64,000 bases of DNA. Origin: Bdellovibrionales bacterium. GTDB lineage: Bacteria > Bdellovibrionota > UBA1018 > CAIMNF01. Of the stretch, positions 31,260 to 61,024 are shown piece by piece. Location of the stretch: contig CANNBJ010000002.1 of assembly GCA_947502835.1 (NCBI GenBank), positions 62,001 through 126,000 on the forward strand. Direction: 5' to 3'. The position numbers were made by a program, and so were the translations under genes. The notes below the pieces were generated by a model, which did no database searches, was not told the DNA's origin, and worked only from the letters and a program-made list of their open reading frames with translations. The first letter of the stretch is position 1. Each line of letters starts with the position of its first letter.

Positions 31260-34200
31260 AGTTGTTTCACTCCAAAGCATACTATATTCTTTCATCGCGT
31301 TTCTACTCGTCTCCTGTTCTTCGGATGGTCTGCTCGGCGGAAAAATTACGGCAACATTTTCAGGGATCAAATCGGTGCAGGTTACGGGACCCGAGAGCGT
31401 CCTCATTGATTTCGTCACCGACCGTCGCTGCACGAGCTATCAGATTCTAAAGCTTCCCGAGCTCACTCCGGTTCAGACGGCTACGCTTCCACCAGTGAAA
31501 CTGAAGGGTCAAAGCCAAGGAATCTCCCCCTCGCAAAATTACAATTTCGCGGTTTCTTGTGTCCAGGGATCCGAGTCGATCGGCCTGGACAAGAGCCTTT
31601 CCGCCACCACTTGGAACCATTTTGACGGAAGATTGAATCCGACGGTGGACCAGCCTGATGGAAGCTTCGAGGTTTCCTGGAATTATTTTTCCGATCCATT
31701 GATCAAGTACAACGTTTATGCCCGTGAATTGTCGGCAAACACGGGGAATTCTTCAAGCCTTGGCACGCTTCTGACAGGATGTGTGGTCCGTGCGGGGACC
31801 AACAAAGTCACCATCGGGTCTCCGGACTGCCCGATCGCAGGGAGCGCTTTGAAGGCCGGTTCAATTTACGAGTTTCGGGTTGTTGCCGTCTATCCTGATG
31901 AGACCGATTCCCGCCCCCATCATTTGATGGTGGCCCCGGAATACGCTGTAATCAGGCCGATTTCCTCCAATTTTGATCTTCCGAATTGCACCCTGAGTCC
32001 ACTGGGCCTGGGAGCGGATCAGAACAGCGCCATTCTCACCCTTCGTTGTTCTCCGCCCATCAGTGCAAGTACGGGCTGCCCTCTGAATTACTTGTCCGTT
32101 CTCGCAAGGCAAGACGGTAGAGTTGTCTCACAAGGAAGTGTTTCCATGAATTCGGACGGCTCAACGATCCTTGAAATCACCCCACTCACAGACCAAAGCG
32201 GTACAGGGAACGATCGAATCGTCAAGGATCTACAACTTGAGTACACCTGCACCTCCAGCGGATCTCCCCAGCGCTCCACCGTTCGCATCGACTCCAACCA
32301 ACCCGCATTGAAGTATCGTAGCCTTACACGAAAATACGAATATGCCCCGGAGCAATCTTATCAAAGGAATCCGGCTTCCGGAGACACGAGCATTGTCGCT
32401 CCGAGTGCCCTCGGAAATGCCGTTGCGGTCGGGGACTTCAACTGCAACGGGAAGCCCGATCTTGCCTTGGGACTTCCGCGAATCACATACAATCTCGCCC
32501 CCTATTTCAACCAAACCCCCGAATCGGGCGCAGTGAAGATTTACTATGACTACGCAAGCGAGCAGGACTCTGGTCAAACCTTGCCTGTGAGCTCTGCAAG
32601 TGTTTCCATACTTTCATTCAAGGACCTGAATCAGGGCGCCCGTTTCGGCGCATCCCTCGCCGCCGGAAACTTGAATCGTGATGTGAGCCGTGGTCCCGGC
32701 GGTCCTCCCGGTACCGACGTCTTCTTTAGCTGCGACGACCTGATCGTGGGCGCACCCAATGACGGTTCGGGGGGCGGTGCGGGTCGAGCGTTCATTTTTT
32801 ATGGTCAACCTGGAGGAATTTCAAACTCGACGAATCAAAACATTTCGGATCTCCGCTCTAATCAGCCTACCTGTAATGGAGATTTCGACAATTCGAGCTG
32901 CACTCCGGTGGCTCTGGTGCCGAATCTGACGACCCACTTCGGAGTGGATCCTTATTTCACCCAGAGCAATGCGGGAAGTAGCACATGGAATCAGAATAAG
33001 AGTTTCTTTGGCTTCAAGGTTTCTTTTGTCGGGGATTTTACGGCGGACGGTTACGGGGATATTGTGGTGACCGACCCGAACTGCTCTTGGGATGGCCCCA
33101 TCAATCGCTCTGTGATTGATGGTTCGACCAACAGGATGCCGGGCGTGGGTTGCGGATACCTTTTCTTTGGCGGTCCTAACGGAGTTCGAAACGATCAGTT
33201 TGTGGGCAATGTTCCGGATTCAACCGTATCCAACCTGCCTGCCGGAATTCCCCAGGACGGTCGCCTCTTGGTGCCCTTCGTGAAATTCTATCCACCCATT
33301 CCGCAGGCAAATATGCATTTTGGCGCAAGTATCTCCTCAGGGGCTGAAATTGATGGTCGACTCCCGGTTCAGATTCCCATGCCCGGACAAGGCCTCATTC
33401 TTGCCTCAGGCAGTGACTTTGTGATCGGTGCTCCCGATTTCGATTATGATGCAGGATTCAGCTCACAAGGCAGCTATCCCAATATCCCCGGATGGAATTC
33501 TCAATTCACTGACTCCGTGGTTTCCCCGGATACTGCTACGGGTGCAAACACGAGGAAATTCACAGCCCCCTTGAACAAGGCATGGGCTCCCTCTGCGGAT
33601 TGGAAGCAAATTCCGATTCCCTCCTCAACCGCATTGAAAAATAGCACCGGGATTGCCTTCGCATATTTCGGCAGACATTCATTCAAGAATTACTTGCTTG
33701 GTCTTGACTCCGTCGATTCGGTTAAATTCCCCTCAGGCGAAGTCTCTTGCACTAGTTGCGCATCCGATCGCATGAAAGGAATGCAGCTCACCAGTCAGCT
33801 TTCCTTGAACATCCGTGACCGCCGAAACGGAAGCCTGAATTGGAGCTCCATGTCAGCGGCCGCTCAAATTCTGAATGACCCACTCCTGAACCCGGTTTCA
33901 AATTTCTTCAATTGTGGTTCAAGAGGAGCCACCAAAACCCCGTTGCAAAGAACGAATTCCTCGGGGTACTACTACGAGCATCTTTCGTGTCTTGCAGGAC
34001 GGAATAATTTTTCCGTGATCTTCCCGGATCTCAAGGACAACGACGCTTCCATTTCACAGTTCGGCTCGGAGGTATCGGTTGCGGGCACGAAAGAAGAAAA
34101 CGCCATCGCGCTATTTAACATTGCAACATCCAATCCATCCAATCTCACGGGAGACTCATTTAAACTCAACGACTCGAGCAATGCCCAGGGAGATCTCAGC

Positions 34201-37200
34201 TCCCGAGTCGTATACAATCCTCAAAACAAGGTTCACTTCAGAATCAAGGGAAGTCCGCTTTGGGAACTGGCTGTTCCCGGGTTCCACTACACTCCAGGAT
34301 CAGGCGAAACATTTGATTCAGTCAGCGGACCCTTCCCGATCAGAAGAGCCCCCATTTTCGAGGAATTGACGTCCACTGTCCCAACGGGATCCGATCTGTC
34401 CATCACCCCCGGTGAATCCATGGAACAAAACGATATCAATCGGGACGGATATGCGGACATCTTGGTCAGTTCCGAACCCGTTGGAAGCTCCTCAGGTTCA
34501 GTCGGCCCGGCAAGAATCTTCACTTATTTTGGAAATTTCGCCGGGGACTTTTCGAGTACCGTAAACTACCCGCCGGCCGAATCCCGATTCCACTCCAACG
34601 CCTCGTGCAGCGTTACAGTCGATTCGACCAATGTAAACACACAGACTGTGCTTTCGACGGGAAGTATTTCAAACCCCGGTCCTTTTTCTGTATTTGACGG
34701 AAGGAGTCTTTCGGAGCTCAAAGATTCTAATCCACAACAAACCCGGTTCTTCACTCTCAACGCAAGATTTCCCTATACGCGCATTCCGGGCGACAAGGAG
34801 TTTTTTGCAACACTAGATGGTCAAAAAGGTGGTGGATCTCTGGATCTCGGTATTGTGACACGAAGCGGGGCCGTCGGGCAGTCGTGCAAGCCGCAGATGA
34901 TCACCCATTTTTACGGGCCTGCTTCTTCTCTTTCCACCTCCGACTTGGACCGCGACGGCATGAGCGATCTTTTGGTAGGATTTTCCTCCCATGACAGCAA
35001 CCGCGGGTTGGCGAAAGCACATTTGTCCTCCGTGAACTCGGCATCGGGCTTTGCAAAGACGGGTCGGGGAATCGGATCTGGTGCAGAGTTCTCTGGCGAC
35101 CTTCCGTTTTCGAAAATGGGATCCGCCGTGGCCGCAGTCAACTGGCTCTTCAGACCCGTGATCAGCAGCAGCAGCATCAATATTTACGATGAGATCCACA
35201 GGCGAGATGCGTGGGTGGGTGCGAGCGGACGGGATAATGGTGCGGGAGCAATGTTCGATTTCAAGGCCTCCGGGTATTCTCAGTCTAACGTTTCGTCCCA
35301 ACCTGCAGCCGGAACCCCTTTGTTGGACAGCTCGAATACTCCAAACAATCTCAACGCCGAACACTCACGGGTGATCGGTGACGTCAATGGTGATGGAAAA
35401 GAAGACATTCTCACTCCGGTGCTGAGACGAGATTCTCAGGGGAATGTATTTTATGATGCGATCCTGTATTTTGGTTCCGCACTCGGGCCGATCACGAATT
35501 CCTATTGCAAACAACTCATTGGGAGCCTCTCGCTTACCTCGACCGGCGGTGGTTCTGCGCTGTCTCCCTCTCTCTGCCTTGGCACACCAACCCCCCCGGT
35601 CGCCTATCTGAATGGAACGGCGGTACCCCTTCCCCAATATCTGAGCCGGCCGACGGGGGTCGGGACGAGTTGGTCCATCTATGCTTTTCCGGCCGGGGAC
35701 GTGAACAAGGATGGAAACGACGATGTGGTCGCGTTCGATTCCTATGCTGCGACAAGCAAGCTCTACCTGTTTCCTGGTTATGCGGGCGGACTGGATGTTT
35801 CCATCCCGACCAAGGCGGACAACAGCTTGCATGCACAAATCGTGACTGAACAGTCAGGTGTCGGTGGATCTGCCTATGATGCCAATCTAATCTCGAATGC
35901 ATCCATATATCAAAATCTCCCGGTCCGGCACGGAGACTTCAATGGGGACGGCTTTGAGGATCTTGCTGTCGGGAACAGCGGCTCAACCAGTCCAAAAGCA
36001 AAGTTGAATCAGAGTTCCGATAACAAGGGCTGGCTTTGCTCCGCCGCATACCTCGACACATTACAGACAAATGAGTTCACCAAGTATTGCAGAGACGGGG
36101 ACGGGGTACCCGGACACGGGTCTGTGACTGTATTCTACGGCGGACCTTATGGATTCCAGGCGCCCTTGAGTGGCGACTACGGATTGAGTCAAACCCCTCG
36201 GTGTGATCATTTCTATGGAACCTGCACCGAAGGGTTCTCCTCCAAGGTAAAGGGTGTTTACGGGTCTCTGGTTCTCGGGAGCAACAATGCATACTCCTAT
36301 GACTCCGCTGCAGTGACATGCTCGCCCGGAGTCAGCGGTGGTCCGGCAAATTGTGGAGAGAGCGCCACCCGAATCCTGAACCCGCTGTTCTATAATATCG
36401 AGGATTCCTTCCTGAGCATGCAAAGCCTTGGATTCGGCGACTCACTCACCGTGGGTGACTTCAATGCGGACGGAATTGACGACCTTGCCGTGGGGATGTC
36501 TCGGTACTGGATCCCTGACTTCCACAAAACCGCTTTCAAGAACACAGTGGATCCAAACATGCGGAATTTCGGAAACCTCTCCGGCCAATCCACGATTCAA
36601 GATACTGCTTCTAAGGGATCCGTGTTCATCTACTACGGCTCACCCCGGGGGGTTCTGGCACCAAAAGCAAGGGAGATGGTCGCAGACTACGGCTTGGCGA
36701 TCGACTCATCGAAAAATTCTTTGCCAAAGCCCGTATTTGCAGTGTCGCCACCGGTGTGGACCGTAACCGATGCATCAGGAGACGCAACCACCGCACCGAG
36801 GCTCGATCAACATCCGATGGCCGGAAGAAGATATTTTGCCTCGAACCTGGCAAGTGGCGACTTTGATTCAATCAAAATAAACGGAAAAATCGCCTCTGAT
36901 CTCGCCGTAGCATCCGGCAATGGCCAAATTTACATCTACTACGGACCCCTTTGCGCGGCAGATAATGATCCAACGAACTGGTATCAACAAACCTACAAAT
37001 ATCCGAAAGTCGCTCGAACATCCGAGATTGCACTTTCAAGCGGCTCTCAAGCAATTGATATGAATTGCACCGTTCTCAATATGAATACCCTTTCCGCCTC
37101 GCCGACGGATGCGCGAATCTCCGTAAGCAAGCCGATCTTACCGCAGTTAATTGATTTATCGGACACCATCACTCCATCCCATGCACTTGGGACCACCCTT

Positions 37201-37713
37201 CTTGCAAAAATGCCTCGTGATGGGGGAAATATCAATGGGGACCCGGGACTCAATCCCGGAGACTCCTGGCTTGGTACATCCGACCTCGTGATCGGAAGCG
37301 CCATCCTGAATGACCCGTCCATTTCCATGCCGGGATCAAAATCTACCGGGGTCGGGTATGTCTTGTTTGGCCATCCGAAATCGATTGCGGGTGATTCATT
37401 CCAAACAACGCCAGGACTCTATGTTGGCCCGATTGATTTTCGAGCTACACTGAGGGCTGACCCGGACACGTCAGGAGCCAATCCGCCGGGACCAACCATC
37501 TATCATTATGCACCCATGCAGCTGAGACCCTATGATCCGAACTTCTCCGGGAGCTCACCCATCGGACAATTCTTTTATTCCGGCGCTTGGCTCGGAGACC
37601 TGAACGGAGACAAATCAGGAGACCTCCTCATGAGTACACCTGACCTGAACAGGGGGGCGGATAGCGCCGCGACTCCACTCATCTGGGGCGGAGGATTCAC
37701 GCTCTGGTATTGA
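31246..37713 (+). CDS. Giant FG-GAP repeat lipoprotein 2
   Basis: 2155 residues, GGAGGAG upstream of the ATG, and overlapping the first giant gene by 14 bases. Lipobox LLVSC at about 21-25, then GGKITATFSGIKSV, which parallels the same place in lipoprotein 1, so the two are paralogues. FN3-like strands fill 60-350. At least nine D-x-D-x-D-G-type loops follow: near 395, 496, 595, 1063, 1233, 1378, 1484, 1563, 1738 and a weaker one near 2118 (for example GDVNGDGKEDILTP). Calcium-dependent folding of one or more propellers is expected from the family. Probably outer-membrane anchored and surface exposed. Many Cys residues occur in pairs, suggesting disulfides. Confidence 0.88.
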   Translation: MFSHKVVSLQSILYSFIAFLLVSCSSDGLLGGKITATFSGIKSVQVTGPESVLIDFVTDRRCTSYQILKLPELTPVQTATLPPVKLKGQSQGISPSQNYNFAVSCVQGSESIGLDKSLSATTWNHFDGRLNPTVDQPDGSFEVSWNYFSDPLIKYNVYARELSANTGNSSSLGTLLTGCVVRAGTNKVTIGSPDCPIAGSALKAGSIYEFRVVAVYPDETDSRPHHLMVAPEYAVIRPISSNFDLPNCTLSPLGLGADQNSAILTLRCSPPISASTGCPLNYLSVLARQDGRVVSQGSVSMNSDGSTILEITPLTDQSGTGNDRIVKDLQLEYTCTSSGSPQRSTVRIDSNQPALKYRSLTRKYEYAPEQSYQRNPASGDTSIVAPSALGNAVAVGDFNCNGKPDLALGLPRITYNLAPYFNQTPESGAVKIYYDYASEQDSGQTLPVSSASVSILSFKDLNQGARFGASLAAGNLNRDVSRGPGGPPGTDVFFSCDDLIVGAPNDGSGGGAGRAFIFYGQPGGISNSTNQNISDLRSNQPTCNGDFDNSSCTPVALVPNLTTHFGVDPYFTQSNAGSSTWNQNKSFFGFKVSFVGDFTADGYGDIVVTDPNCSWDGPINRSVIDGSTNRMPGVGCGYLFFGGPNGVRNDQFVGNVPDSTVSNLPAGIPQDGRLLVPFVKFYPPIPQANMHFGASISSGAEIDGRLPVQIPMPGQGLILASGSDFVIGAPDFDYDAGFSSQGSYPNIPGWNSQFTDSVVSPDTATGANTRKFTAPLNKAWAPSADWKQIPIPSSTALKNSTGIAFAYFGRHSFKNYLLGLDSVDSVKFPSGEVSCTSCASDRMKGMQLTSQLSLNIRDRRNGSLNWSSMSAAAQILNDPLLNPVSNFFNCGSRGATKTPLQRTNSSGYYYEHLSCLAGRNNFSVIFPDLKDNDASISQFGSEVSVAGTKEENAIALFNIATSNPSNLTGDSFKLNDSSNAQGDLSSRVVYNPQNKVHFRIKGSPLWELAVPGFHYTPGSGETFDSVSGPFPIRRAPIFEELTSTVPTGSDLSITPGESMEQNDINRDGYADILVSSEPVGSSSGSVGPARIFTYFGNFAGDFSSTVNYPPAESRFHSNASCSVTVDSTNVNTQTVLSTGSISNPGPFSVFDGRSLSELKDSNPQQTRFFTLNARFPYTRIPGDKEFFATLDGQKGGGSLDLGIVTRSGAVGQSCKPQMITHFYGPASSLSTSDLDRDGMSDLLVGFSSHDSNRGLAKAHLSSVNSASGFAKTGRGIGSGAEFSGDLPFSKMGSAVAAVNWLFRPVISSSSINIYDEIHRRDAWVGASGRDNGAGAMFDFKASGYSQSNVSSQPAAGTPLLDSSNTPNNLNAEHSRVIGDVNGDGKEDILTPVLRRDSQGNVFYDAILYFGSALGPITNSYCKQLIGSLSLTSTGGGSALSPSLCLGTPTPPVAYLNGTAVPLPQYLSRPTGVGTSWSIYAFPAGDVNKDGNDDVVAFDSYAATSKLYLFPGYAGGLDVSIPTKADNSLHAQIVTEQSGVGGSAYDANLISNASIYQNLPVRHGDFNGDGFEDLAVGNSGSTSPKAKLNQSSDNKGWLCSAAYLDTLQTNEFTKYCRDGDGVPGHGSVTVFYGGPYGFQAPLSGDYGLSQTPRCDHFYGTCTEGFSSKVKGVYGSLVLGSNNAYSYDSAAVTCSPGVSGGPANCGESATRILNPLFYNIEDSFLSMQSLGFGDSLTVGDFNADGIDDLAVGMSRYWIPDFHKTAFKNTVDPNMRNFGNLSGQSTIQDTASKGSVFIYYGSPRGVLAPKAREMVADYGLAIDSSKNSLPKPVFAVSPPVWTVTDASGDATTAPRLDQHPMAGRRYFASNLASGDFDSIKINGKIASDLAVASGNGQIYIYYGPLCAADNDPTNWYQQTYKYPKVARTSEIALSSGSQAIDMNCTVLNMNTLSASPTDARISVSKPILPQLIDLSDTITPSHALGTTLLAKMPRDGGNINGDPGLNPGDSWLGTSDLVIGSAILNDPSISMPGSKSTGVGYVLFGHPKSIAGDSFQTTPGLYVGPIDFRATLRADPDTSGANPPGPTIYHYAPMQLRPYDPNFSGSSPIGQFFYSGAWLGDLNGDKSGDLLMSTPDLNRGADSAATPLIWGGGFTLWY

Positions 37714-46999: not shown

Positions 47000-47983
47000 A
47001 TGATCCGCATCCCACACGGAATACGCCTCGCTGGAGTTGCCCTTGTCCTCACTCTTCTGATTCTTGTTACTCTCAAGCGGAACGAAAAATCCAAACCGAA
47101 CGCCGCGGAAGGCGATCTCCGCATTGCAGAAAATATTTTTGATGCCCGGGAAAAGGAGGCAACCCTGAAAATGGGTGGCAGACTCGGTCTCCACATTCTC
47201 CAAAATGATGTTGCCTCTCTTCAAACCGAGGAAACACTCTCCCTGTCGGATGAGGCTTGGTTTCAAACCCTTCGTGCATTGTTCATTGCCGGAAAGGCAA
47301 ATGGACTCCGCCCGGAAACCCTTGATCAGTTGCTCATGCAATCTCTCATCCGATTCGAGAAGAATCATTCGACCAAAAACGCCAAATCAACATTCCATCA
47401 GACCGAGATCGAACGCCTTCCCTCCCCCCTGCCTGAATCGGGCGCTCAAAAGATTCTGCAAGGATGGCTTTTCAACCCGAAACAACCGCTCCCCCTGAAA
47501 AGACTCGCTCTCTTCAAGCTGGCAGCCCAAACTCCGGATCCTTCACCCCGGGTCATCGAGGCATTTGTTTCCATTCTTCGCGGCTCTGATCCTTCTCCTG
47601 ATTTCATTTCCGTGATTGAGGCAGTCCGGAGCCCATCAGTTCGAAAGACCTTGTTGCAGGCAGTTCTTCCCCGGACTAAGTCAATGACAAAGTCGGCGAG
47701 AGTTGAAGTAGTGAAGGTTCTCTCACGAAATACCCGTTTGATTCCGGAGGACTACAAAAAGGTTCGCTCCATGGCCGCAAGCCTGATCAAGGCCGATTCC
47801 GAAATGGAAATCGAATCCGGCCTCAGGGCAATGTCCACGCTCATTGAATATCGGGCCCTGGATCCGGGCGAATCGGATACCTTGAAAACCTGGCTTGATG
47901 GGATTCACGAGGCGAAAAGGACCCCGCTCATTCGTGCCGCGATTCAAGGAATCTTAGTAAAAATTGGTCGAAAACCCGATTAG
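47000..47983 (+). CDS. Membrane-anchored helical (HEAT-like) protein
   Basis: 327 residues. An N-terminal hydrophobic helix (GIRLAGVALVLTLLILVTL) with Lys/Arg after it, so either an uncleaved anchor or signal. The remainder is a series of amphipathic helices (LPLKRLALFKLAAQ, VRKTLLQAVLPR, ARVEVVKVLSR, LIRAAIQGILVKIG) resembling HEAT-type repeats. It begins ten bases after the stop of giant lipoprotein 3 with GGTGGA upstream, so it belongs to that operon and may help in export or assembly of the giants (inference). Its 3' end overlaps the convergent gene by 30 bases. Confidence 0.75.
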   Translation: MIRIPHGIRLAGVALVLTLLILVTLKRNEKSKPNAAEGDLRIAENIFDAREKEATLKMGGRLGLHILQNDVASLQTEETLSLSDEAWFQTLRALFIAGKANGLRPETLDQLLMQSLIRFEKNHSTKNAKSTFHQTEIERLPSPLPESGAQKILQGWLFNPKQPLPLKRLALFKLAAQTPDPSPRVIEAFVSILRGSDPSPDFISVIEAVRSPSVRKTLLQAVLPRTKSMTKSARVEVVKVLSRNTRLIPEDYKKVRSMAASLIKADSEMEIESGLRAMSTLIEYRALDPGESDTLKTWLDGIHEAKRTPLIRAAIQGILVKIGRKPD

Positions 47984-48649
47984 CACCTGGGGACCGTTGT
48001 AACTCACAACTCCGTCACCTTGTTCTTCGGCCTTCCATGCCGCAAAACGATAGTGTCCGCTCAAGAACATCACGAAGTCGCGTCCCACGGGGTAATCCAC
48101 TCCGATTCCAAACGAGGTTTCGATGATCTTCGAGGCAAAATACGGCCAGCGACCCGGGAAGTTGAAGTCGGGATCGGAGGGCGCGGGCGCGCTGGAAACC
48201 GAGAGCTTTGTCGGCGTTACCGAGACGGCGAGAAATGGACTCACCCTGGTTTTCACCACCTCGGAGAAGTCATCACCTACCTCTCGACTTGAAGAAAGTC
48301 CTAGGGGATACAAGAGCGCGCTGAAACCAACCCCTGCAATGGAAAAAAACCCATAACTGCTTCCGAGATCTGCAAGGAAGTTGACCCCGATCCTTGTTCG
48401 AATCGAGGGCAAATCCCAGAGGAACATCGGATTCACGGTGAGGTAGTTGCCAAGGGATGTGGCTTCCGGAAAAATGCTCCCCGCAGTGAATTTCAAAGGG
48501 GCATAGCCCAAGCCAAGCCGAAACGTGGGAACATCAATCAACGCGTGTGACGGGGTTGAGACGAGAAGAGTCAGAAGGATGGCAAGGGTGCGGACCGGGA
48601 AGTTCTTCACTCGATCTTGATTTTGGAACAACCCCCATGAAAAATCCAT
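47954..48649 (-). CDS. Predicted outer-membrane beta-barrel protein
   Basis: Up to 231 residues. Signal peptide VRTLAILLTLLVSTPSHA, then alternating strands (FRLGLGYAPLKF, RIGVNFLADLG, ETSFGIGVDYPVG, FVMFLSGHYRFAAW) and a C-terminal aromatic end FSTNFY, as recognised by the BAM complex. The ATG at 48649 gives a long polar n-region; a GTG at 48610 would give a tidier signal and is a good alternative. Divergent from the next gene, convergent with the HEAT-like gene. Eight strands would fit the length; ligand unknown. Confidence 0.7.
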   Translation of the reverse strand: MDFSWGLFQNQDRVKNFPVRTLAILLTLLVSTPSHALIDVPTFRLGLGYAPLKFTAGSIFPEATSLGNYLTVNPMFLWDLPSIRTRIGVNFLADLGSSYGFFSIAGVGFSALLYPLGLSSSREVGDDFSEVVKTRVSPFLAVSVTPTKLSVSSAPAPSDPDFNFPGRWPYFASKIIETSFGIGVDYPVGRDFVMFLSGHYRFAAWKAEEQGDGVVSYNGPQVLIGFSTNFY

Positions 48650-49346: not shown

Positions 49347-50324
49347 ATGGAACTTTTGAAGAAAATCTCTGTTTCAATGCTTGTGATCCTCGGGTGTGCA
49401 AACACGGCCGGGACCAGCTTTGCATCCGATACCATTACCGCTGCGGAAATTGAACATTTTGAACATACGTGGGAATCCTGGACCCGCGACATTGTGAAGG
49501 AAATCCATCCCGGATTGAAACTCACCGTGATTGCAAGGATGGAATTCAGTCAAAGTCCGGAACAACTCGAGACGTATGAAGAGATGAAAACGATCGGACA
49601 CCTGCCCGGCCTCCCCGAAGTGAACGATCCGAACTACACACGACCACTCGACAGTCCGCTCTACGCCTTAATTGCCAGAAAACACATTCGCGTGATCCTT
49701 CATGAAGCCATTCCCGCAGCAGAAAAGGCACTGATCGAGGAAGTCATCCGCGCCAAAATGAAGATCCTGTCCGGAGATCAATTCAGCACGGAAATTATTC
49801 CCGTGGCGGAAAAAACCGGACCTGAGCGGAATCCGTCCGCTGCGGTCATTCTTCTTGCTTTGCTTGGTCTCGGCGTTGCGATGATTGTCCGTCGTCGGGT
49901 CCGCCTCGAAACCACACCCCTACCTTCTTCCGCACCCGCAAAAATCACCCCAACGGAGGTGCCTGCGCTGGTATCTCCGACACCGGCGGCAAGGAGTCCG
50001 ATTCCCGCAAATCACCAGATCATGACATCCGATCCTTCCGCACGCCGGCTTGCCTTGTCCCGTGAAAAAATCGATGTCCTCGCAAAGGCTTCGCTCAATT
50101 GCTCAACGCGTTTCACAAATCAGATTCTCGGCGGGCTCGATCAAGCCCGCTTTGACCTTGTGAACCAGTGGTTGGTACAGAATCAAAGAATCGTGACCCT
50201 TGCCGAATCCAACTATGCCCGCCTGTTGCTCTCGGCCCGAATCCAGCAGATTGAGAATCAGAAACTCATTTCCGCAATTTCTTCGTTGAAAACCAGAACG
50301 AAGAATCAGGAGAACTCCCTATGA
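49347..50324 (+). CDS. Membrane protein with FliF-C-like periplasmic domain
   Basis: 325 residues. Signal (about 1-27), periplasmic domain (28-165), one membrane helix (AVILLALLGLGVAMIV, near 170-186) and a basic, helical cytoplasmic tail of 140 residues with no FliG sequence. The periplasmic part, ending KHIRVILHEAIPAAEKALIE and then VIRAKMKIL, aligns with the same region of the next gene product and with the pattern of the FliF C-terminal ring-building region. A start at TTG 49356 would place GGAAAGG nine bases upstream and give MKKISVSMLVILG, better than the ATG at 49347 where the GG-rich site touches the start. Coupled to the next gene by ATGA. Ring or adaptor role inferred. Confidence 0.8.
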   Translation: MELLKKISVSMLVILGCANTAGTSFASDTITAAEIEHFEHTWESWTRDIVKEIHPGLKLTVIARMEFSQSPEQLETYEEMKTIGHLPGLPEVNDPNYTRPLDSPLYALIARKHIRVILHEAIPAAEKALIEEVIRAKMKILSGDQFSTEIIPVAEKTGPERNPSAAVILLALLGLGVAMIVRRRVRLETTPLPSSAPAKITPTEVPALVSPTPAARSPIPANHQIMTSDPSARRLALSREKIDVLAKASLNCSTRFTNQILGGLDQARFDLVNQWLVQNQRIVTLAESNYARLLLSARIQQIENQKLISAISSLKTRTKNQENSL

Positions 50325-52150
50325 AATTGAGCTTGAAAGTGAAAGTCGCCATCATGGCACTTCTGAGCCTGGTCCTGTTCCAGGCCACCTTGACCCTGAG
50401 TTTCGCACAACCTGCGACCGCACCGAAGGTTCGCGAGGAGTCGACTTCGCTCGAGAATCTTTATCAGGAAAAGGTCCGCTCGATTCTCGACAATCTTGTC
50501 GCCCCGGAGGATTACACCCTCGTAATCAGTGCGACCATCAAGAACGACGAGCGCAGGCTCAAGGAATACAGCGACACGATTGAACGAAAGTTCATGCCGG
50601 GTCTCCCGATCAATGATCCCTCTGCATTTGCGGATGCGAACAACCTCCTTCTCGAGCTGAAGCAAAAGGTCGACATCCAGATCATCCTCACGGAGAACGT
50701 GCCTGCCGACAGGGACACGATTGTGAAAGACATCATTCGAAAGAAGCTCCACCTGAGCGAAGAGTCAGGGGATTCAATCTCCGTGGTTCGTGCGGCTAGG
50801 ATTGTCCCCTTTCCGAAGCCCTCCGAGCAGCGTTGGTTTCCTGAGCTATCCACAAAAATGATCGCCTTCTGGGTGCTCGTGGCCATGATGGTCCTGACCG
50901 GAATCCTTCTTTGGGATCAGCGCCGGAAAGAAAAAGCCAAGCAACAGGAGCGGGCCGAACAGGCATTCCTCATTGAGCAAAAACGTGCCCATGAGGAGGC
51001 GAAGGCGGAAGAGGAAGTCACCCCGGAAGCCGAGCCCACCCCTGTGGAAGACGGCTCTCTCACCGAAGAACAAAAGAACGAACTTGAGATCAAAATGGCA
51101 TTCGAGAAGAGCGAGATTCACAAGCTCTGCACCGAGTACGGCCCGATTGTCGCCAAAGCAGTTGAAGAGTTCATGGTTCAGGGACATGTTCGCGAGACCG
51201 TGATGGTCATGGAGGCGATTGGATGGCATGAGTCCAAGCGGCTGTTTCGCGACCTCGACACCCGCTCCTGGGCGAAGATCGGCTCCACCCTTCGAACTCG
51301 CCAGGGTGAGCCCTCCATCGTCGAATCTTTTGAGGCGGCCCACTATTTCCATCGCTTCGCATTGTCGTATGTACTGGAGCGGACAGCAAAAGAAGACGGA
51401 AACCCATTCGGTTTCGTATTCAAACTCAACGACAACCAGAGAATCGATCTTCTGAATCGGGAGGCTCCGGATAAGATCGCCTTGATCGGTGTCTATTGCA
51501 CCGGACCGCAAATGAACGACTTCTTGAGAGGCCTCGAGAACTCAAAGCAGAACGAGATCCTCTACCACCTTACCCGGATCAAACAGCTCCCGGAGACAGA
51601 AGTGAAAAGTGGCGTGCTCAGCTATCTTGCGAGCCTTGAGCGGATCAAAAAAGATCCATCCGTGTTTGCCGACGGGCCGATGCTTGCTGCTGAATTCCTG
51701 AAGAGTCTGCCTGCGGGCCGCGAGGAGGAGTTGATCCAATACCTCTTTGATCAGCATCCTGCCGAGGCGGAAAAACTTCGCCGCGTACGTGTGATGTTTC
51801 AGGACATTCCCTACTATCCCGCAGAGTTCACCCGCAAGGTCATCGAGAATCTGGAGTCGGACCTGATCCAGCGGGCCCTCACCGGCTATGACCGCGGGTT
51901 CACCGACGAGTTCCTGCAGCTCCTGCCAAGCAAACGGGCAATGATGATTCTGAATGACCTGCTCCACGGGGATTCGAATGTTCCGCAATCACAGTGTGCG
52001 GAGAGCAGACGTGAGATTTGTTCCCTGCTGGAGAGCCATTTCGAGGCGCAAAAATTCAGGGTTGCCGACTACTGGACGGACCAGGACGGGGGCAGCCGGG
52101 TGGAACATGAGACCACCCGGGAATATGAAGAGACAAAGAAGATTGCATGA
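50321..52150 (+). CDS. FliF-FliG fusion-like rotor protein
   Basis: 609 residues. Signal (1-29); periplasmic domain (about 38-165) with EKVRSILDNLV, VDIQIILTENVPADRD and the ESGDSISVVRAARI ending typical of the FliF C-terminal region (RGDSVTV-type); membrane helix MIAFWVLVAMMVLTGILLW near 185-203; an acidic linker; then about 250-600 resembling FliG. The FliG likeness: ETVMVMEAIGWHESKRLFRDL (FliG-N like), REAPDKIALIGVY (EHPQ-like middle motif), MFQDIPYY, DLIQRALTGY and LPSKRAMMILNDLL (torque-helix region of FliG-C, KRAAEML in FliG). So a truncated FliF and FliG appear as one chain. Family assignment is by eye. It is followed after 22 bases by motA. Confidence 0.75.
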   Translation: MKLSLKVKVAIMALLSLVLFQATLTLSFAQPATAPKVREESTSLENLYQEKVRSILDNLVAPEDYTLVISATIKNDERRLKEYSDTIERKFMPGLPINDPSAFADANNLLLELKQKVDIQIILTENVPADRDTIVKDIIRKKLHLSEESGDSISVVRAARIVPFPKPSEQRWFPELSTKMIAFWVLVAMMVLTGILLWDQRRKEKAKQQERAEQAFLIEQKRAHEEAKAEEEVTPEAEPTPVEDGSLTEEQKNELEIKMAFEKSEIHKLCTEYGPIVAKAVEEFMVQGHVRETVMVMEAIGWHESKRLFRDLDTRSWAKIGSTLRTRQGEPSIVESFEAAHYFHRFALSYVLERTAKEDGNPFGFVFKLNDNQRIDLLNREAPDKIALIGVYCTGPQMNDFLRGLENSKQNEILYHLTRIKQLPETEVKSGVLSYLASLERIKKDPSVFADGPMLAAEFLKSLPAGREEELIQYLFDQHPAEAEKLRRVRVMFQDIPYYPAEFTRKVIENLESDLIQRALTGYDRGFTDEFLQLLPSKRAMMILNDLLHGDSNVPQSQCAESRREICSLLESHFEAQKFRVADYWTDQDGGSRVEHETTREYEETKKIA

Positions 52151-52172
52151 AGAGGGCTGAAGGAGGAATCAT

Positions 52173-52985
52173 ATGAACTTAGCAGGATTTTTGGGAATTA
52201 TCAGCGGTCTCAGTGTCATGACCTATGTCATCTCCAGTTCAACCAAGGACACGAAACTGTTTCTCGACCCTCATGGAGTGATCATCGTTCTCGGTGGCAC
52301 CCTCACCGTTGCACTCCTTTGCTTTCCCTTCTCGCGCCTCCTCGTGGCACTGAAGATCGTTCTCGGGAAGCTCCTCAAGAAGGATGACCACAGTTATGTT
52401 GACATGATCGATGCGATTGTTTCGACAGCGCAGATCTACAGGACCAACCCGAAGTCCTCACTCACCCAGATTCCGGAGAGCGCGCATCCTTTCTTCAAGG
52501 AAGCAATGCAAATGCTAGTCGAGTTTGGTTTCAATGCAGAAGACCTTGAGCGGATTCTCCAGAACAACATCGACGGCAAGAGAAAGCGGGATCACGATGA
52601 GGTCAAGGTCTGGCACACAATTTCCCGGTTCCCCCCGGCCTTCGGACTTCTCGGGGCCACTGTCGGGATGATTTCGCTGCTTCAGACGCTTGGCGAGCCG
52701 GGTGCCCAGGATCGAATCGGTCCTGCGATGGCAACCGCTCTCGTTGCCACGTTCTATGGATTGGTGTTCGCCAACCTCATTTTCATTCCGATCTCTGAAA
52801 AGATCCAGGAAGTGGCAAATGAAGACGCAGTCATGCGCCAGCTCATCAAAGAGGGTGTCATGATGATCCAGGAGAAACGCCATCCCCTCATGATTTCAGA
52901 GTATCTTAAATCCTTTCTCGATCAAAAGGATCGCATCGGAGGCCCGGGTGTGGGCGGAAGCGCATCGTTCAAGGAAGCCGCATAA
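52173..52985 (+). CDS. motA: Flagellar-type stator protein MotA
   Basis: 270 residues with the MotA layout: helices near 3-22 and 30-50, a cytoplasmic domain with the conserved charged part (ERILQNNIDGKRKRDHDEV, E/R contacts to FliG), and helices near 158-178 and 192-213 around PAFGLLGATVGMI. GGAGG lies seven bases before the ATG. Forms the proton or sodium channel with MotB around a 5:2 complex (known for the family). The genome presumably has another pair for the normal flagellum; this one sits with the FliG-like gene. Confidence 0.95.
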   Translation: MNLAGFLGIISGLSVMTYVISSSTKDTKLFLDPHGVIIVLGGTLTVALLCFPFSRLLVALKIVLGKLLKKDDHSYVDMIDAIVSTAQIYRTNPKSSLTQIPESAHPFFKEAMQMLVEFGFNAEDLERILQNNIDGKRKRDHDEVKVWHTISRFPPAFGLLGATVGMISLLQTLGEPGAQDRIGPAMATALVATFYGLVFANLIFIPISEKIQEVANEDAVMRQLIKEGVMMIQEKRHPLMISEYLKSFLDQKDRIGGPGVGGSASFKEAA

Positions 52986-52988
52986 GGA

Positions 52989-54098
52989 ATGAACCCCGGG
53001 GGATCCATGAAGAACCGAATGGAGAAAAAATACGGAGAGGCTCCGGAGAACGTGGTTCAGGCGGCTGCGATCCGGAGGCGCAAGGTGGAAAAGAAGGCGG
53101 AAGTCCCTCTTGCCCATGACGAATCGAATTGGCTTGTGTCGTATGCCGACATGATGACCCTTCTGTTCGGCTTCTTCGTCCTGCTGTACTCTTTCAGCCG
53201 GGTCGACGAAAAAAAGTTTGAGATCGTCCGGAAGGATGTGGCCCGCTATTTCGGCGGGCAAATCAAAATGAATCCGACCGTGAAAAAGCTCGAGGAGGAA
53301 GTCCAGGACATCATTTCGGCCTCGGGAATCGACAAGAAAACCCAGGTCGTGGCAAGGGACTCGGAACTCGAGCTTCGCTTCAACGGGAGCCTCCACTTTG
53401 TTCCTGGCACTGCGAAACTTGATAACAACTCGAACTTTCTGCTCTCCAAGCTCATTGATGCCGTAAAACAGCGGGTCAAGGCGGATTCGATCTCCGTGGA
53501 AGGACATACGGATGACAGCCCGATCCATTCGGAGGCCTTTCCTTCGAACTGGGAGTTGTCCTCTGCGCGAGCTTCTGCCGTGGTACGCGAGTTTGAAAAG
53601 TTTGGTTTTGACAGTACCAAGTTGACTGCGAAGGGATTTGGATCCGCAAGGCCCCTGGTTCCGAATCGGGACAGCAAGGGGGAGGTCATTCCCGAGAATC
53701 AGGAATCAAACCGCAGGGTGATCATCACAGTTGCCTTCCGACACGATGTTGAAGACGCGGTTCAGGCCATGAAAACCGGGGAGTTTGTTTCTGCCGATGT
53801 CCCCGAGAATCTCAAGAAGGAACCACTTGTCCATCCCGGTGAAGGTGAGTCGACGTGGAATGAAAAGATGAATCGGGAAATCGCCTCCACGGAGGAAAAA
53901 CTGAAACTTGCGGAGGAGCGCCTTCGTGATACCGATGAGCGCGCCCGCGCCGCCAAGACACTGGCTGAGATGCAGGGCAAACTCAAGCAGGTGGAAAAGC
54001 AGATTCAAACCTCGGAAAAGGAAACCGAAAAATACCTCGGCATCACCGAATCCAACAAAGCCTCCCGCTATCCTGCCTCGAAGCGCAGGAAACCCTAA
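52989..54098 (+). CDS. motB: Flagellar-type stator protein MotB with C-terminal coiled coil
   Basis: 369 residues. One membrane helix with the ion-carrying Asp (NWLVSYADMMTLLFGFFVLLYSF, near 46-68), then a plug and an OmpA-type peptidoglycan domain (EGHTDDSPIHSEAFPSNWEL near 171; FGSARPLVPNRDS). A C-terminal extension of about 85 residues (285-369) is charged coiled coil (EEKLKLAEERLRDTDERARA), longer than in normal MotB. The ATG at 52989 follows AAGGA directly; ATG 53007 with GGGGGA is an alternative. Separated from motA by three bases. Confidence 0.93.
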   Translation: MNPGGSMKNRMEKKYGEAPENVVQAAAIRRRKVEKKAEVPLAHDESNWLVSYADMMTLLFGFFVLLYSFSRVDEKKFEIVRKDVARYFGGQIKMNPTVKKLEEEVQDIISASGIDKKTQVVARDSELELRFNGSLHFVPGTAKLDNNSNFLLSKLIDAVKQRVKADSISVEGHTDDSPIHSEAFPSNWELSSARASAVVREFEKFGFDSTKLTAKGFGSARPLVPNRDSKGEVIPENQESNRRVIITVAFRHDVEDAVQAMKTGEFVSADVPENLKKEPLVHPGEGESTWNEKMNREIASTEEKLKLAEERLRDTDERARAAKTLAEMQGKLKQVEKQIQTSEKETEKYLGITESNKASRYPASKRRKP

Positions 54099-56983: not shown

Positions 56984-58338
56984 AGAACGGATCCCTGGAG
57001 CTGCAGGCGGATTCCCGGTTTGTCATTCGCCTGTTCGAGGCCGCACAAAGCATCTATTCCGGGAAGGCTCATACCGAAGCGTACGTGCTGCCTGAAAAGT
57101 TTGATACCGAAGAGCAGGGAAGAACCCTTCAAAGGGACTTGAAGAAGATCCTGGTTTGGAATCTCACGGATGACCTTCGTGAGGATTTCGATCCCTATGT
57201 CCTCGATCACCGAACACGCGGCAAACGCCTGCGATTTGGAATCGGACCCTTCTCTTGGGTGCGCCGACACAATTTTCATCGCATTGAAATCACTCCACCC
57301 GCGGATCCTCAGGGTCGTTACCGTCCCGAGGACCACCAGCGCACCGTGGTCGAAGGTCAACTCACCCGAATCCTCGGGACCGACCCCTGGGGCTTTCTCG
57401 GAAGCGCAGCCCGTGCACTTGAACCGCTACTTGACCTTGGTTCCGGATTCAAGGGCGATGATCCATCTTCCAACTTCCTCGGGAAATCGCGCTCCTTTCT
57501 CGTCAATACCCAGATTGAAACCACTCCCGGGAAAACCGAGGCACCTTTCATGAAGATTGAACGCGCCTATACGGGTTGGTCCCTTCGGAAAAACCGGCTG
57601 CTCAGACTGATTCGCAACCTTTCGTCTGAAGTTGCCCAGCACCAACCCGGTTCGTCCCTGATCAATCCCGATGAGTTTTCCCAAACCCGAAAAATCCAGG
57701 CCTATCGTCTCGGCTGGAGTCTTTTGGTCTATCCAAAGGGGATTGATCGCCTGATTGAAATCCTCGACAGTCGAAAAACAGGGACCCTTCACGCGCAAAA
57801 CCTTCTGATTTCGCAAATGGGAAGGGAAGCCTATCACAAGTACTGTGAGGCGCGAGGCCTCAAGGAGGTTGCTTTTCGCGTCTCCCTCTCAAGAAATGAT
57901 CTCGATCTGCACTACGGGACGATCCTGGAATCTTCGCGGGGGGAGACCACCTACCTTGGCTGTGTGACCCCCTTCATGCTTGAGATCTACAATCTTCGCT
58001 CGAGATTCCAAAGCGGCAAGTCCCCCCTCTTCATGCCTGCAGGGGATGAGGACCGGACAAAGGAGAAAATCCGCATCCTGAACCGGATTGCCTCCGCCCT
58101 CTCAAGAACAGGGGACGCGGGGGATTTGATCAGTCTCGTCGGGCGCGAGAACTCTTTCTTTCAGGCCCGTGTCAGCGGGTATCGGACCCGTGATGAGAAT
58201 GGCGACTCCGACTATTTCTCCAACACCATCGGACTCATCGATCAGGAGATCCTGACTGGACCTTTGTCCGACATCGCAGCAAGCAGCAGGATTTCGAGCA
58301 ATGAGATCGAGGCGAGGTACCTTTCGAATGGCTATTGA
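56980..58338 (+). CDS. Large protein, unrecognised family
   Basis: 452 residues, starting at a GTG that overlaps the previous stop. No signal peptide at the annotated start and no domain recognised. The sequence is rich in Arg/Asp/Glu with segments such as HNFHRIEITPPADPQGRYRP and LRFGIGPFSWVR, and a helical middle (RKNRLLRLIRNLSSEVAQ). It contains no catalytic signature I can name. If the previous product is exported, this one may be read as a separate polypeptide that meets it only through context. The end overlaps the subtilase start by 11 bases. Confidence 0.65.
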   Translation: MKNGSLELQADSRFVIRLFEAAQSIYSGKAHTEAYVLPEKFDTEEQGRTLQRDLKKILVWNLTDDLREDFDPYVLDHRTRGKRLRFGIGPFSWVRRHNFHRIEITPPADPQGRYRPEDHQRTVVEGQLTRILGTDPWGFLGSAARALEPLLDLGSGFKGDDPSSNFLGKSRSFLVNTQIETTPGKTEAPFMKIERAYTGWSLRKNRLLRLIRNLSSEVAQHQPGSSLINPDEFSQTRKIQAYRLGWSLLVYPKGIDRLIEILDSRKTGTLHAQNLLISQMGREAYHKYCEARGLKEVAFRVSLSRNDLDLHYGTILESSRGETTYLGCVTPFMLEIYNLRSRFQSGKSPLFMPAGDEDRTKEKIRILNRIASALSRTGDAGDLISLVGRENSFFQARVSGYRTRDENGDSDYFSNTIGLIDQEILTGPLSDIAASSRISSNEIEARYLSNGY

Positions 58339-61024
58339 TCTCCGGTCGATCCTTCTGCTTCTTCTTCCACTTGCCGCCCAGGCCACGGATCTCTCCGGCC
58401 TTTCATGGGGACTTCATAACGCGGGAGAAAGCCAGCAGATCCTGATCGATCATTACACCTCGGGCGTGATCCAGGGAGTTGCGGGTGAGGACATTCGTCC
58501 GATCCGGGCGGACTCCTTGCCCCGGATTCCGGTCGTGGTTGCGGTTCTCGATACCGGTGTCGATGAGTCCCATCCCGCGCTCTCGGGGTCCCTGGTGCTT
58601 CCGGGCTTCAATGCAATCGACGGCTCCTCGAAAGTCAAGGACTCCCACGGACATGGCACCCACGTCTCCGGTATCATTGCCGGCAGGCGAACCGATCGGG
58701 GTTTTGAAGGTGTCTCCCGAAATGCCCTCATTCTTCCGATCCGTGTGATTCAAAGCGGAACGAATGCTCCGATCCGCCCTCAGGAGCTTGAGGGAGCAGC
58801 GGGAACCGCTCTCACGGAAAATGTGGCAAAGGGAATCCATCATGCCATTGAGCGCGGAGCACGCATCATCCACCTCTCCCTTGCTTGGCCCGCTTCGATT
58901 CGAAGCAAAAGCGTGGATGATTCAATCGCGCTTGCGGAGAAAAAAGGCGTTCTGGTCGTTGCATCGGCCGGGAACGATTCGACACAAGCCATGGTGTACC
59001 CCTGCTTGTATGCGAGTGTGATTTGTGTGGGCGCACACGGCCCGGATGGCGCGTTCACGCATTTCTCGAATCATGGACCGATGGTGGACATTCTGGCTCC
59101 CGGAGTTTCGATTTTAAGTGCATGGCCCCTCTCAAAGAACCCCGTCATGTTCGCAGGACAAACCGGATATGAGTTCCGAAACGGCACATCGATGGCCGCC
59201 CCTTTTGTCACAGGAGCTCTTGCGGAATTGATCTCGCTCGGGATTCCTCCAAACGAAGCAAAAAACCGGCTCTTCCTTTCTTCACGATCCACCCGCACGA
59301 CATCCCTCTTTCGCACTGAACTCGGGAGATTGTCCGGCGAACGGCCGGATCCCGTCCGAAAGCAGAGTCGTTTCGGCAACCTGGATCTGGAGCGCGCAGT
59401 GTCCCTGAAACCGGCGCCCCTGATTGTCCCTGCAAGGAAAGATCCGGTTTCAGTCGACTGGCGTGGCAAAAGTCGAACCGAATCCCTCGTGATCCCTTGG
59501 ATCAACCTCTGGACGGAGGCTCACGATGTTGAAATCCTCGTTGCCGGGAGGCGTTTTCCATTCAAGCGGATCAGGACAGGAGAGCGGGTTCGGGTGTCTT
59601 TGGACATTCCCGTTTCAAAGGATTCCGAGTCCCAATTGCTTCTGCCGGCGAAAGTCATGATCAAGGGACGGGAGGAGGTCACATTTTCGATTCCCGTCTC
59701 CCTAGTGCACGTGATTGAAGAGAATGCGATTCCGGACGCGGCGATCATCCATGCGTTTCCGGATTTCCGGCCCACGGAAACCATGAGTATTCGTTCCGTG
59801 ATTCCCGTGGCACCGCTGACTACTCACGGACACCTCTTTCTCGAAGATGAGTCATCAGGACTCAAGGCACATCTCCTTGCCAAGGGAAACCGTCCTCGAA
59901 GTGCTCTTTTGAAGGGTCGCAGATCCGCGGATCTTCTGAATTGGTACGCGCTTCCCGATGGCAGCTTCCAGGCTCTTTTTGCGATCGAGAGCGATGCAGA
60001 CTCGAGACCCTTCTTTCAGTTTGTCCGCCTAGATCCGGAGTTGCGGGAAGTCGGGGAGACGAAACTGGGCACAGAAACGACCGTATTCCCCGAGAACTTC
60101 CGATTCGTCCTTTCAGACGGAGCATACCTCCCTCACTTCATCTCACACGGATTCACACCGAAACCGGATCTCCCCCCCTTTGATCCCTGGAACCCCGAGT
60201 TCCGCGACGAGAGGCGGATGAGGTTCTACCGGCTCGGGTCGGACGGCCTGCGAGTGATTCCCCTTGAGGCGTCGGAGACTCCTCTTTTGTTTCTCGGGAG
60301 CGATTCCGTGATCGTCTCCTCGGGATCCGGGTACCTTCAAACCTACAGAATCCTCACCTTCAAGGATGGCCGTGTCCTGGAACGCAAGGACCTAGAGCTC
60401 CCCGCTTATCGACTGCTCGCAGGTCTTGTCGAAACACGACCTGCCATTCCTCTCGACGGCTCGTCCCCGGATCGGCTTTTCCTTGTCGGGCGTTCCTCTC
60501 CCGGCAACCTCAGGATTTCAAGCATTTCCAGAAACTCTCCCGGGACTTTTGGAACGGACCGGATCCTGGCTGCCCCATCCTCTCTTGATTCCCTGATGGG
60601 CGTTGCCGGCGTTTTCATGGACGGAGGAAAAGCATCCTTCTTTGCCGAATCCCATTACGATCTGATCTATCTTCCCGCAGACGGCACTCGCCCCTTTTCG
60701 AGTTCACTGAACCGCTACAGCTACATTCCCTCCATGATCACCTCGAAGAATCTCTTTCCCGTTCCGGTGGCCCAGGGCTACGGCAAACCATCGCTCCCCG
60801 GGATCTATTCCCCGGCAAGCCTGCTTACGGACCAGATCTCGGAAATCAGGATCGCGGATCCGGATGCCCGAAGAATCCTGACTCCGCTGGAGTTCAGAAT
60901 GAGGGCCGGAGGCTCTTGTCGCAGTATCGGAAATCTCCTTCCCGATGAAAGCGGAGGCGAATCAAGAATCGCATTTTGGTGCGGCGAGAAGCTGGTTGAA
61001 ATTCCGATCAGAATTCGCGAGTGA
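58328..61024 (+). CDS. Secreted subtilisin-like serine protease (S8)
   Basis: 898 residues from the ATG at 58328 with a signal peptide (LRSILLLLLPLAAQAT). The catalytic triad is intact: Asp in VVAVLDTGVDESHP near 73, His in DSHGHGTHVSGIIAG near 108, Ser in FRNGTSMAAPFVTGA near 287, and the oxyanion Asn in VVASAGNDST near 213. There is almost no propeptide between signal and domain. The last 550 residues are beta-rich with repeated hydrophobic strands and may form a propeller or adhesive domain. Last gene of the run 55091-61024; in a predator such proteases would attack prey or process the neighbouring proteins (inference). The 3' end overlaps hutH by 17 bases. Confidence 0.92.
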   Translation: MAIDLRSILLLLLPLAAQATDLSGLSWGLHNAGESQQILIDHYTSGVIQGVAGEDIRPIRADSLPRIPVVVAVLDTGVDESHPALSGSLVLPGFNAIDGSSKVKDSHGHGTHVSGIIAGRRTDRGFEGVSRNALILPIRVIQSGTNAPIRPQELEGAAGTALTENVAKGIHHAIERGARIIHLSLAWPASIRSKSVDDSIALAEKKGVLVVASAGNDSTQAMVYPCLYASVICVGAHGPDGAFTHFSNHGPMVDILAPGVSILSAWPLSKNPVMFAGQTGYEFRNGTSMAAPFVTGALAELISLGIPPNEAKNRLFLSSRSTRTTSLFRTELGRLSGERPDPVRKQSRFGNLDLERAVSLKPAPLIVPARKDPVSVDWRGKSRTESLVIPWINLWTEAHDVEILVAGRRFPFKRIRTGERVRVSLDIPVSKDSESQLLLPAKVMIKGREEVTFSIPVSLVHVIEENAIPDAAIIHAFPDFRPTETMSIRSVIPVAPLTTHGHLFLEDESSGLKAHLLAKGNRPRSALLKGRRSADLLNWYALPDGSFQALFAIESDADSRPFFQFVRLDPELREVGETKLGTETTVFPENFRFVLSDGAYLPHFISHGFTPKPDLPPFDPWNPEFRDERRMRFYRLGSDGLRVIPLEASETPLLFLGSDSVIVSSGSGYLQTYRILTFKDGRVLERKDLELPAYRLLAGLVETRPAIPLDGSSPDRLFLVGRSSPGNLRISSISRNSPGTFGTDRILAAPSSLDSLMGVAGVFMDGGKASFFAESHYDLIYLPADGTRPFSSSLNRYSYIPSMITSKNLFPVPVAQGYGKPSLPGIYSPASLLTDQISEIRIADPDARRILTPLEFRMRAGGSCRSIGNLLPDESGGESRIAFWCGEKLVEIPIRIRE

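Follow-up and report, generated by a model that had tools for sequence, protein, structure and literature searches.

The 64,000-nucleotide stretch of Bdellovibrionales DNA analyzed here (contig CANNBJ010000002.1, positions 62,001 to 126,000; hereafter, the window) carries four consecutive genes that encode a protein in which a predicted FliF-type ring domain and a FliG-like rotor region form one polypeptide (P2), a paralogue of that protein (P1), and a MotA/MotB stator. On balance, we consider it probable that these genes and their conserved neighbors specify an ion-driven rotary motor that derives from the flagellum and is independent of it; its rotor, a single piece, would drive a surface machine that spans the envelope and perhaps serves gliding. 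The core genes are as follows.

49347-50324, plus strand: P1, 325 amino acids, open reading frame as listed
50321-52150, plus strand: P2, the putative fused rotor protein, 609 amino acids; its start overlaps the end of P1 by ATGA
52173-52985, plus strand: motA, a stator subunit of the PomA/MotA (flagellar) type, 22 bases after P2
52989-54098, plus strand: motB, with MotB_plug and OmpA (peptidoglycan-binding) domains, 3 bases after motA

The gene order, the ATGA overlap, and the two gaps all agree with the initial annotation, which had reported this locus from the sequence alone. Its identification of motA and motB was likewise borne out: the motA product matched Pfam MotA_ExbB (1.5e-23) and NCBIfam PomA (1e-45, versus 1.6e-6 for TolQ), and that of motB matched the MotB_plug and OmpA domains (Pfam, 1.6e-18 and 1.6e-16). 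Both channel prolines are present in the MotA of the window and are invariant across the MotA sequences compared.

P2 comprises a signal peptide, an RBM3-type ring domain (residues 31-159), a membrane helix (180-198), and a FliG-like cytoplasmic region (approximately 252-583). FliF was not recognized in the periplasmic domain by sequence-profile searches (Pfam and hhalign). The AlphaFold model of residues 31-159 (predicted local distance difference test, pLDDT, mostly 65-80) superimposed on residues 256-450 of Vibrio FliF, i.e., RBM3, with a Z score of 13.2 and 2.5 Å over 98 residues, and the best unrelated fold gave a Z score of 9.3. The periplasmic domain of P2 is thus predicted to have the RBM3-type fold of FliF, in keeping with the ring-building fold that the initial annotation had proposed for this part.

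The FliG-like region was recognized by several approaches that concur. FliG_C was matched at 2.5e-8, which passes the Pfam cut-off (FliG_M, at 2.8e-4, fails its own), a profile of nine P2 orthologues matched solved FliG structures with an E value of 7.5e-20 over residues 361-571, and residues 376-569 aligned with residues 126-318 of the FliG encoded elsewhere in the same genome at 94.5% (hhalign). In profile-profile comparisons, a family of related fusions (group B, 749-809 amino acids) aligned both with residues 13-330 of FliG (98.1%) and with residues 252-583 of P2 (97.3%), which suggests that the cytoplasmic part of P2 is probably a whole FliG. A Foldseek search with the whole P2 model returned FliG first (6.8e-5) and FliF second. 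A separate AlphaFold model of residues 245-609 was no better for FliG-C (pLDDT below 50 past approximately residue 410), and we therefore take the evidence for FliG-C from Pfam, the structure profile, and hhalign. The FliG fold anticipated in the initial annotation is accordingly recovered by sequence comparison and not by the predicted model. The anatomy as a whole is upheld: one polypeptide combines a ring-building domain with FliG, and its own stator is encoded beside it.

Conservation within this region is selective. In the torque helix of all nine P2 sequences, R or K stands at the position of R281 in E. coli FliG and D at that of D288 (the invariant D546), whereas Leu occupies the D289 position and the K264 position is lost. 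The EHPQ(R) motif for FliM binding is also lost, reading EAPD in P2 versus EHPQ in the FliG of the same genome. P1 has a signal peptide, a FliF-RBM3-like periplasmic domain, a membrane helix (163-181), and a cytoplasmic stretch with a FliG-M-like piece, such that it partly reaches into the FliG-M-like region, which goes beyond its earlier description. Residues 33-283 of P1 aligned with residues 39-424 of the P2 family profile at 99.2% (hhalign), and P1 is a paralogue, specific to this lineage, that corresponds to the N-terminal two thirds of P2.

A single-sequence search of contigs found just two close relatives. In a search of 369 Bdellovibrionota genomes, fusions resembling P2 over most of its length (hereafter, A-type) were identified in 26, belonging to five families. 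The gene cluster around the A-type fusion was seen again on every contig of sufficient length, and its conserved core consists of motA, motB, two barrel-like proteins, a PEGA/TPR lipoprotein, a protein of approximately 325 amino acids, and the fusion. This core was also found, with some rearrangement, in loci L069, L072, L073, L075, and L076. The synteny survey of Bdellovibrionota that the initial annotation had suggested reveals an arrangement that is real and far too conserved to be a product of chance.

One cluster-bearing genome (locus L068) is, we assume, that of Bdellovibrio bacteriovorus HD100. The order there is motA, motB, a barrel-like protein on the opposite strand, the PEGA/TPR lipoprotein, the second barrel-like protein, a 325-amino-acid protein with one helix, and the fusion (2913420-2915153); in the latter half of the cluster the genes overlap. 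MotA matches lie at 2919 kb and 3172 kb in HD100; by position, the stator of the cluster is motAB2 (Bd3021/Bd3020) and the other is motA3 (Bd3254). The MotA sequences of A-type clusters (15 sequences from four families) form one clade (99/99) that stands apart from MotA1 and MotA3 of HD100 and from the MotA3-like stator of the window genome, indicating a dedicated lineage. Two further genes neighbor the HD100 cluster, and neighbors of similar size occur in other species: one encodes a VWA-domain protein upstream of motA2 (L068:17919-19325) and the other a HAMP/SpoIIE phosphatase, in convergent orientation to the fusion gene (L068:7672-9423).

The locus in the window is larger than first described, with giant lipoproteins and barrel-like proteins to the left of the core genes and a PEGA/TPR lipoprotein to the right.

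25878-31259, plus strand: giant lipoprotein, 1793 amino acids, lipobox FLVSC, in tandem with the 2155- and 3087-amino-acid lipoproteins
31246-37713, plus strand: giant lipoprotein, 2155 amino acids, lipobox LLVSC, FG-GAP repeats (9.3e-32), with homologues near the fusion in L069-L073
37727-46990, plus strand: giant lipoprotein, 3087 amino acids, lipobox SGLVSC, no Pfam domain match
47000-47983, plus strand: protein of 327 amino acids, one N-terminal membrane helix and then helical
47954-48649, minus strand: OMP1-like small protein with a signal peptide, beta-barrel-like, with homologues in the clusters of L068, L069, L070, L072, L073, L074, and L075
48663-49301, plus strand: OMP2-like small protein with a signal peptide, beta-barrel-like, with homologues in the clusters of L069, L072, L073, L074, L075, and L076
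54138-55022, plus strand: P5, a lipoprotein with PEGA-like and TPR domains (TPR 1.5e-6)

An LVSC lipobox is common to the three tandem giant lipoproteins. Open reading frames of at least 900 amino acids flank 20 of 36 cassette loci versus one of 16 control loci (p 6e-4), a count made over the loci retrieved and including related loci that are not independent. P5 is kept in every family seen, and its cluster homologues match at 1e-89 to 1e-110. By position and length, rather than by sequence score, the 327-amino-acid protein is the counterpart of the protein of approximately 325 amino acids that adjoins the fusion in other families. The OMP2-like protein is putatively a barrel; the HD100 homologue of the OMP1-like protein matched OMP_b-brl at 0.0048, which fails the cut-off. 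Apart from motAB, the A-type clusters seen contain no recognized flagellar gene. No secretion component was recognized, and none of the proteins of the locus was identified as a Glt protein. A subtilase (S8) of 907 amino acids is encoded downstream of the cluster (58301-61024).

Two further groups of cassettes are related to the A-type. Group B fusions (L047:8479-10728, L048:8320-10650, L049:4391-6820, and L050:6488-8902) comprise two RBM-like domains, one helix, and a whole FliG, with motA and motB next in line; they occur only in the taxonomic order to which the window belongs, with flagellin genes nearby in L047 and L049. Group C fusions (L054:4520-6418, L055:1423-3357, L100:6177-8381, and L101:13078-14979) are more diverged and directly follow a PEGA/TPR lipoprotein; their loci also include motAB. 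A PilZ protein (1.8e-7) is encoded directly after motAB in genome G125, and a similar protein occurs in G126 (L101:11263-12327 and L102:11112-12176), which suggests control by cyclic di-GMP. A solo FliG_C protein of 141-146 amino acids, with none of the other FliG domains, is widespread in the phylum and is a possible partner of the fusion (L037:9674-10114 on contig 1 of the window genome, L052:3824-4249, L053:9413-9838, and L084:3393-3827); it also occurs in G122, where FlhA and rod proteins were not detected. In L097 and L098 (genomes G309 and G307, 97-99% complete and without FliG_C matches), flagellar-type motAB adjoin proteins of 444-1116 amino acids and large lipoproteins, and no fusion protein was recognized.

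These comparisons bear on whether P2 could be a relic, i.e., a membrane protein that does not rotate, has degenerate FliG domains, and serves, for example, as a load sensor or a holder of MotAB within a regulatory cluster. The divergence of the FliG homology, the disappearance of the FliM motif, and the barely recognizable FliG part of group C would fit such a role. However, the FliG part has been kept in five families with its torque-helix positions conserved, and a MotAB partner is retained by both of the distinct FliG-like architectures (A and B), making a relic quite improbable.

The window genome encodes a full flagellar set elsewhere (fliF and fliG on contig 3, L036, together with FlhA, rod proteins, and two further motAB pairs), which indicates that the locus is an addition to the flagellum. 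An ordinary flagellar operon with its stator was rejected, as the canonical fliF and fliG are on another contig. Other MotAB pairs for the flagellum are present in both HD100 and the window genome. Across genus g89, which we infer to be Bdellovibrio, canonical FliG was found in 23 of 24 species and the A-type fusion in nine of 24, such that 14 of the 23 FliG-bearing species are without the A-type.

Conversely, related cassettes occur in genomes in which flagella were not detected. FlhA, canonical FliG, and a rod protein were not found in G352, which encodes the lipoprotein, MotA, MotB, and a 545-amino-acid fusion with FliG_N, FliG_M, and FliG_C all above Pfam cut-offs (FliG_C 3.6e-10). Group C likewise occurs where flagellar genes were not detected: neither G125 (94% complete) nor G126 (99% complete) had a FliG_C match, nor was a rod protein found in G126, and both encode giant lipoproteins, motA, and motB, to which G125 adds the PilZ protein, the PEGA/TPR lipoprotein, and a group C fusion. 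Genomes G281, G199, G294, G305, G331, G335, and G340, among others, were not counted as lacking flagella; since FlhA is present, the apparent absence of canonical FliG is better read as a gap in a metagenome-assembled genome (MAG). G263 was set aside because rod proteins are present, though FlhA is absent. Collectively, these observations provide good support, subject to the draft state of some genomes, for a machine that is separable from the flagellum in both directions.

The main rival to a separate motor is an accessory ring, in which the A-type fusion would add a further ring on or about the MS/C-ring of the sheathed polar flagellum, recruit MotAB2 as an extra stator, and raise torque, with the barrel-like proteins and lipoproteins belonging to the sheath or basal disks. 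Several observations weigh against a flagellum-independent motor, and those that concern swimming favor such a ring. Those A-type genomes that were checked for flagellar genes are flagellated, and flagellin genes lie near two group B cassettes. In work by Morehouse from 2011, each of the three motAB pairs of HD100 is said to contribute to swimming. The genomes in which flagella were not detected are draft MAGs, group C fusions do not match FliG directly and are linked to P2 only through profile comparison (95.6%), the AlphaFold model of P2 is of low confidence past residue 425, and the link of the cluster to gliding is drawn from gene content. Expression of motAB2 is strongly altered in fliL mutants (PMC11323537), which again suits an accessory ring, and a different candidate for gliding has been put forward in HD100, namely aglQ (bd1480) and a VWA gene (bd3099), both of which are induced on surfaces (PMC9140294).

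An accessory ring would nonetheless have to accommodate the related cassettes found where no flagellum was detected, the flagellated g89 species without the A-type, the clusters in which motAB are the sole flagellar genes recognized, the loss of the FliM-binding motif, and giant lipoproteins for which a flagellar ring has no need. Furthermore, the FliL that has been tested (Bd1076) binds MotB3 and neither MotA2 nor MotB2 (PMC11323537). We regard the accessory ring as unlikely overall, while the flagellated state of the A-type genomes and the role in swimming credited to motAB2 keep it viable for the A-type. The initial annotation had left the choice between a second rotary or gliding motor and a flagellar accessory ring undecided; the cassettes in genomes without detectable flagellar genes and the frequent absence of the A-type from flagellated relatives now favor a second motor.

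In the motor that we favor, the signal peptide would export P2 (and P1 in the lineage of the window), and the RBM3-type domains would oligomerize into an inner-membrane ring that faces the periplasm. The FliG part would hang directly under this ring as a torque-receiving ring, and no joint between FliF and FliG would be needed because ring and rotor are one polypeptide. The neighboring MotA5-MotB2 stator, anchored to peptidoglycan, would turn a rotor that has no FliM/FliN switch. Movement may then be passed across the envelope by the PEGA/TPR lipoprotein, the one-helix 327-amino-acid protein, and the two barrel-like proteins to the giant surface lipoproteins, which may act as adhesins in slow gliding or in the moving of prey-contact adhesins. 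The presence of these components together suggests that the output lies at the cell surface. As a candidate for it, gliding has the most appeal because the gliding machinery of Bdellovibrio is described as unidentified and an open challenge in a 2026 review (PMC13104615). The most far-reaching version, in which a phylum-wide, flagellum-independent machine with a single-polypeptide ring and FliG rotor, its own MotAB, and barrel-like proteins and TPR lipoproteins connecting to giant adhesins is the missing gliding motor of Bdellovibrio and its relatives and a surviving, export-free use of the flagellar rotor, is possible, although we place it somewhat short of an even chance.

The same surface components could instead belong to an envelope machine driven by the proton motive force (PMF) with no role in motility, comparable to Tol or the type IX secretion system (T9SS), in which FliG-type rotation secretes, assembles, or clusters the giant lipoproteins or remodels the envelope during predation. 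Linkage to giant lipoproteins, barrel-like proteins, and the TPR lipoprotein is consistent with this, as is the PilZ protein beside motAB in G125, given the control of a surface function by cyclic di-GMP that it suggests. However, secretion and Tol-type systems do not use flagellar-type MotAB or a FliG torque ring, both of which are kept here, and no secretion component was recognized; we give this explanation even less credence than the accessory ring.

Comparison with known systems places the arrangement as a variant of the flagellar rotor and stator, with a fair chance of being a separate machine. It shares with flagellar FliF, FliG, and MotAB/PomAB an RBM3-type domain followed by a C-terminal membrane helix, FliG M and C, a four-helix MotA, and a MotB with plug and OmpA domains. 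Flagellar FliF has RBM1, RBM2, and RBM3 and two membrane anchors, whereas P2 has approximately 130 periplasmic residues, one RBM, a cleavable signal, and one helix. FliG is fused in P2 rather than separate, its FliM-binding motif is lost, and no export, rod, or hook genes were recognized in the P2 cluster, relatives of which occur in genomes without detectable flagella. We know of no case of a flagellar rotor and stator working outside the flagellum.

The view of the initial annotation that no such arrangement had been described needs qualification. In Chlamydiaceae, a FliF-like periplasmic part is naturally joined to a membrane helix and a piece of FliG (PMC4768692). Within approximately 330 amino acids, the chlamydial protein combines an RBM2-like piece, two membrane helices, and FliG-M only, whereas P2 has one helix, an RBM3-like domain, and both FliG M and C. 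The chlamydial fusion was reported with FliF, FliL, and FlhA only and with no stator (PMC4768692). Artificial FliF-FliG fusions from Salmonella and Vibrio (the FliFG S-ring, PMC11481574) can form rings, and the Salmonella one rotates, although these are laboratory constructs within a normal flagellum. The HD100 stator pair is also published: motAB2, by position the pair of the A-type cluster, has been presented as a free-standing flagellar stator pair in a study that treats stator genes as solitary or paired (PMC11323537), and for this reason the cluster around it seems not to have been noticed before. The remainder of the claim stands, in that the fusion partner, barrel-like proteins, lipoprotein, and cluster of HD100 are not described in the literature on that pair, as far as it is accessible.

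Among surface machines, Agl/Glt of Myxococcus is the closest in overall plan, as an inner-membrane PMF motor linked to outer-membrane barrels, TPR proteins and lipoproteins, and a surface adhesin; AglRQS is of the TolQR type without FliG, whereas the MotA of the window is of the PomA/MotA type. The motor of T9SS and gliding is GldLM, with SprA as translocon; the families matched by the stator of the window are MotA_ExbB and MotB_plug/OmpA. If the proposed motor is real, it would represent a third way to power a surface machine, besides Agl/Glt and T9SS, and one with a genuine FliG torque ring. It would provide a concrete candidate for Bdellovibrio gliding, and the published motAB2 phenotypes would read differently. 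For the evolution of the flagellum, it would set beside the canonical FliF and FliG a one-piece ring and rotor with no export apparatus, carried in genomes without detectable flagella.

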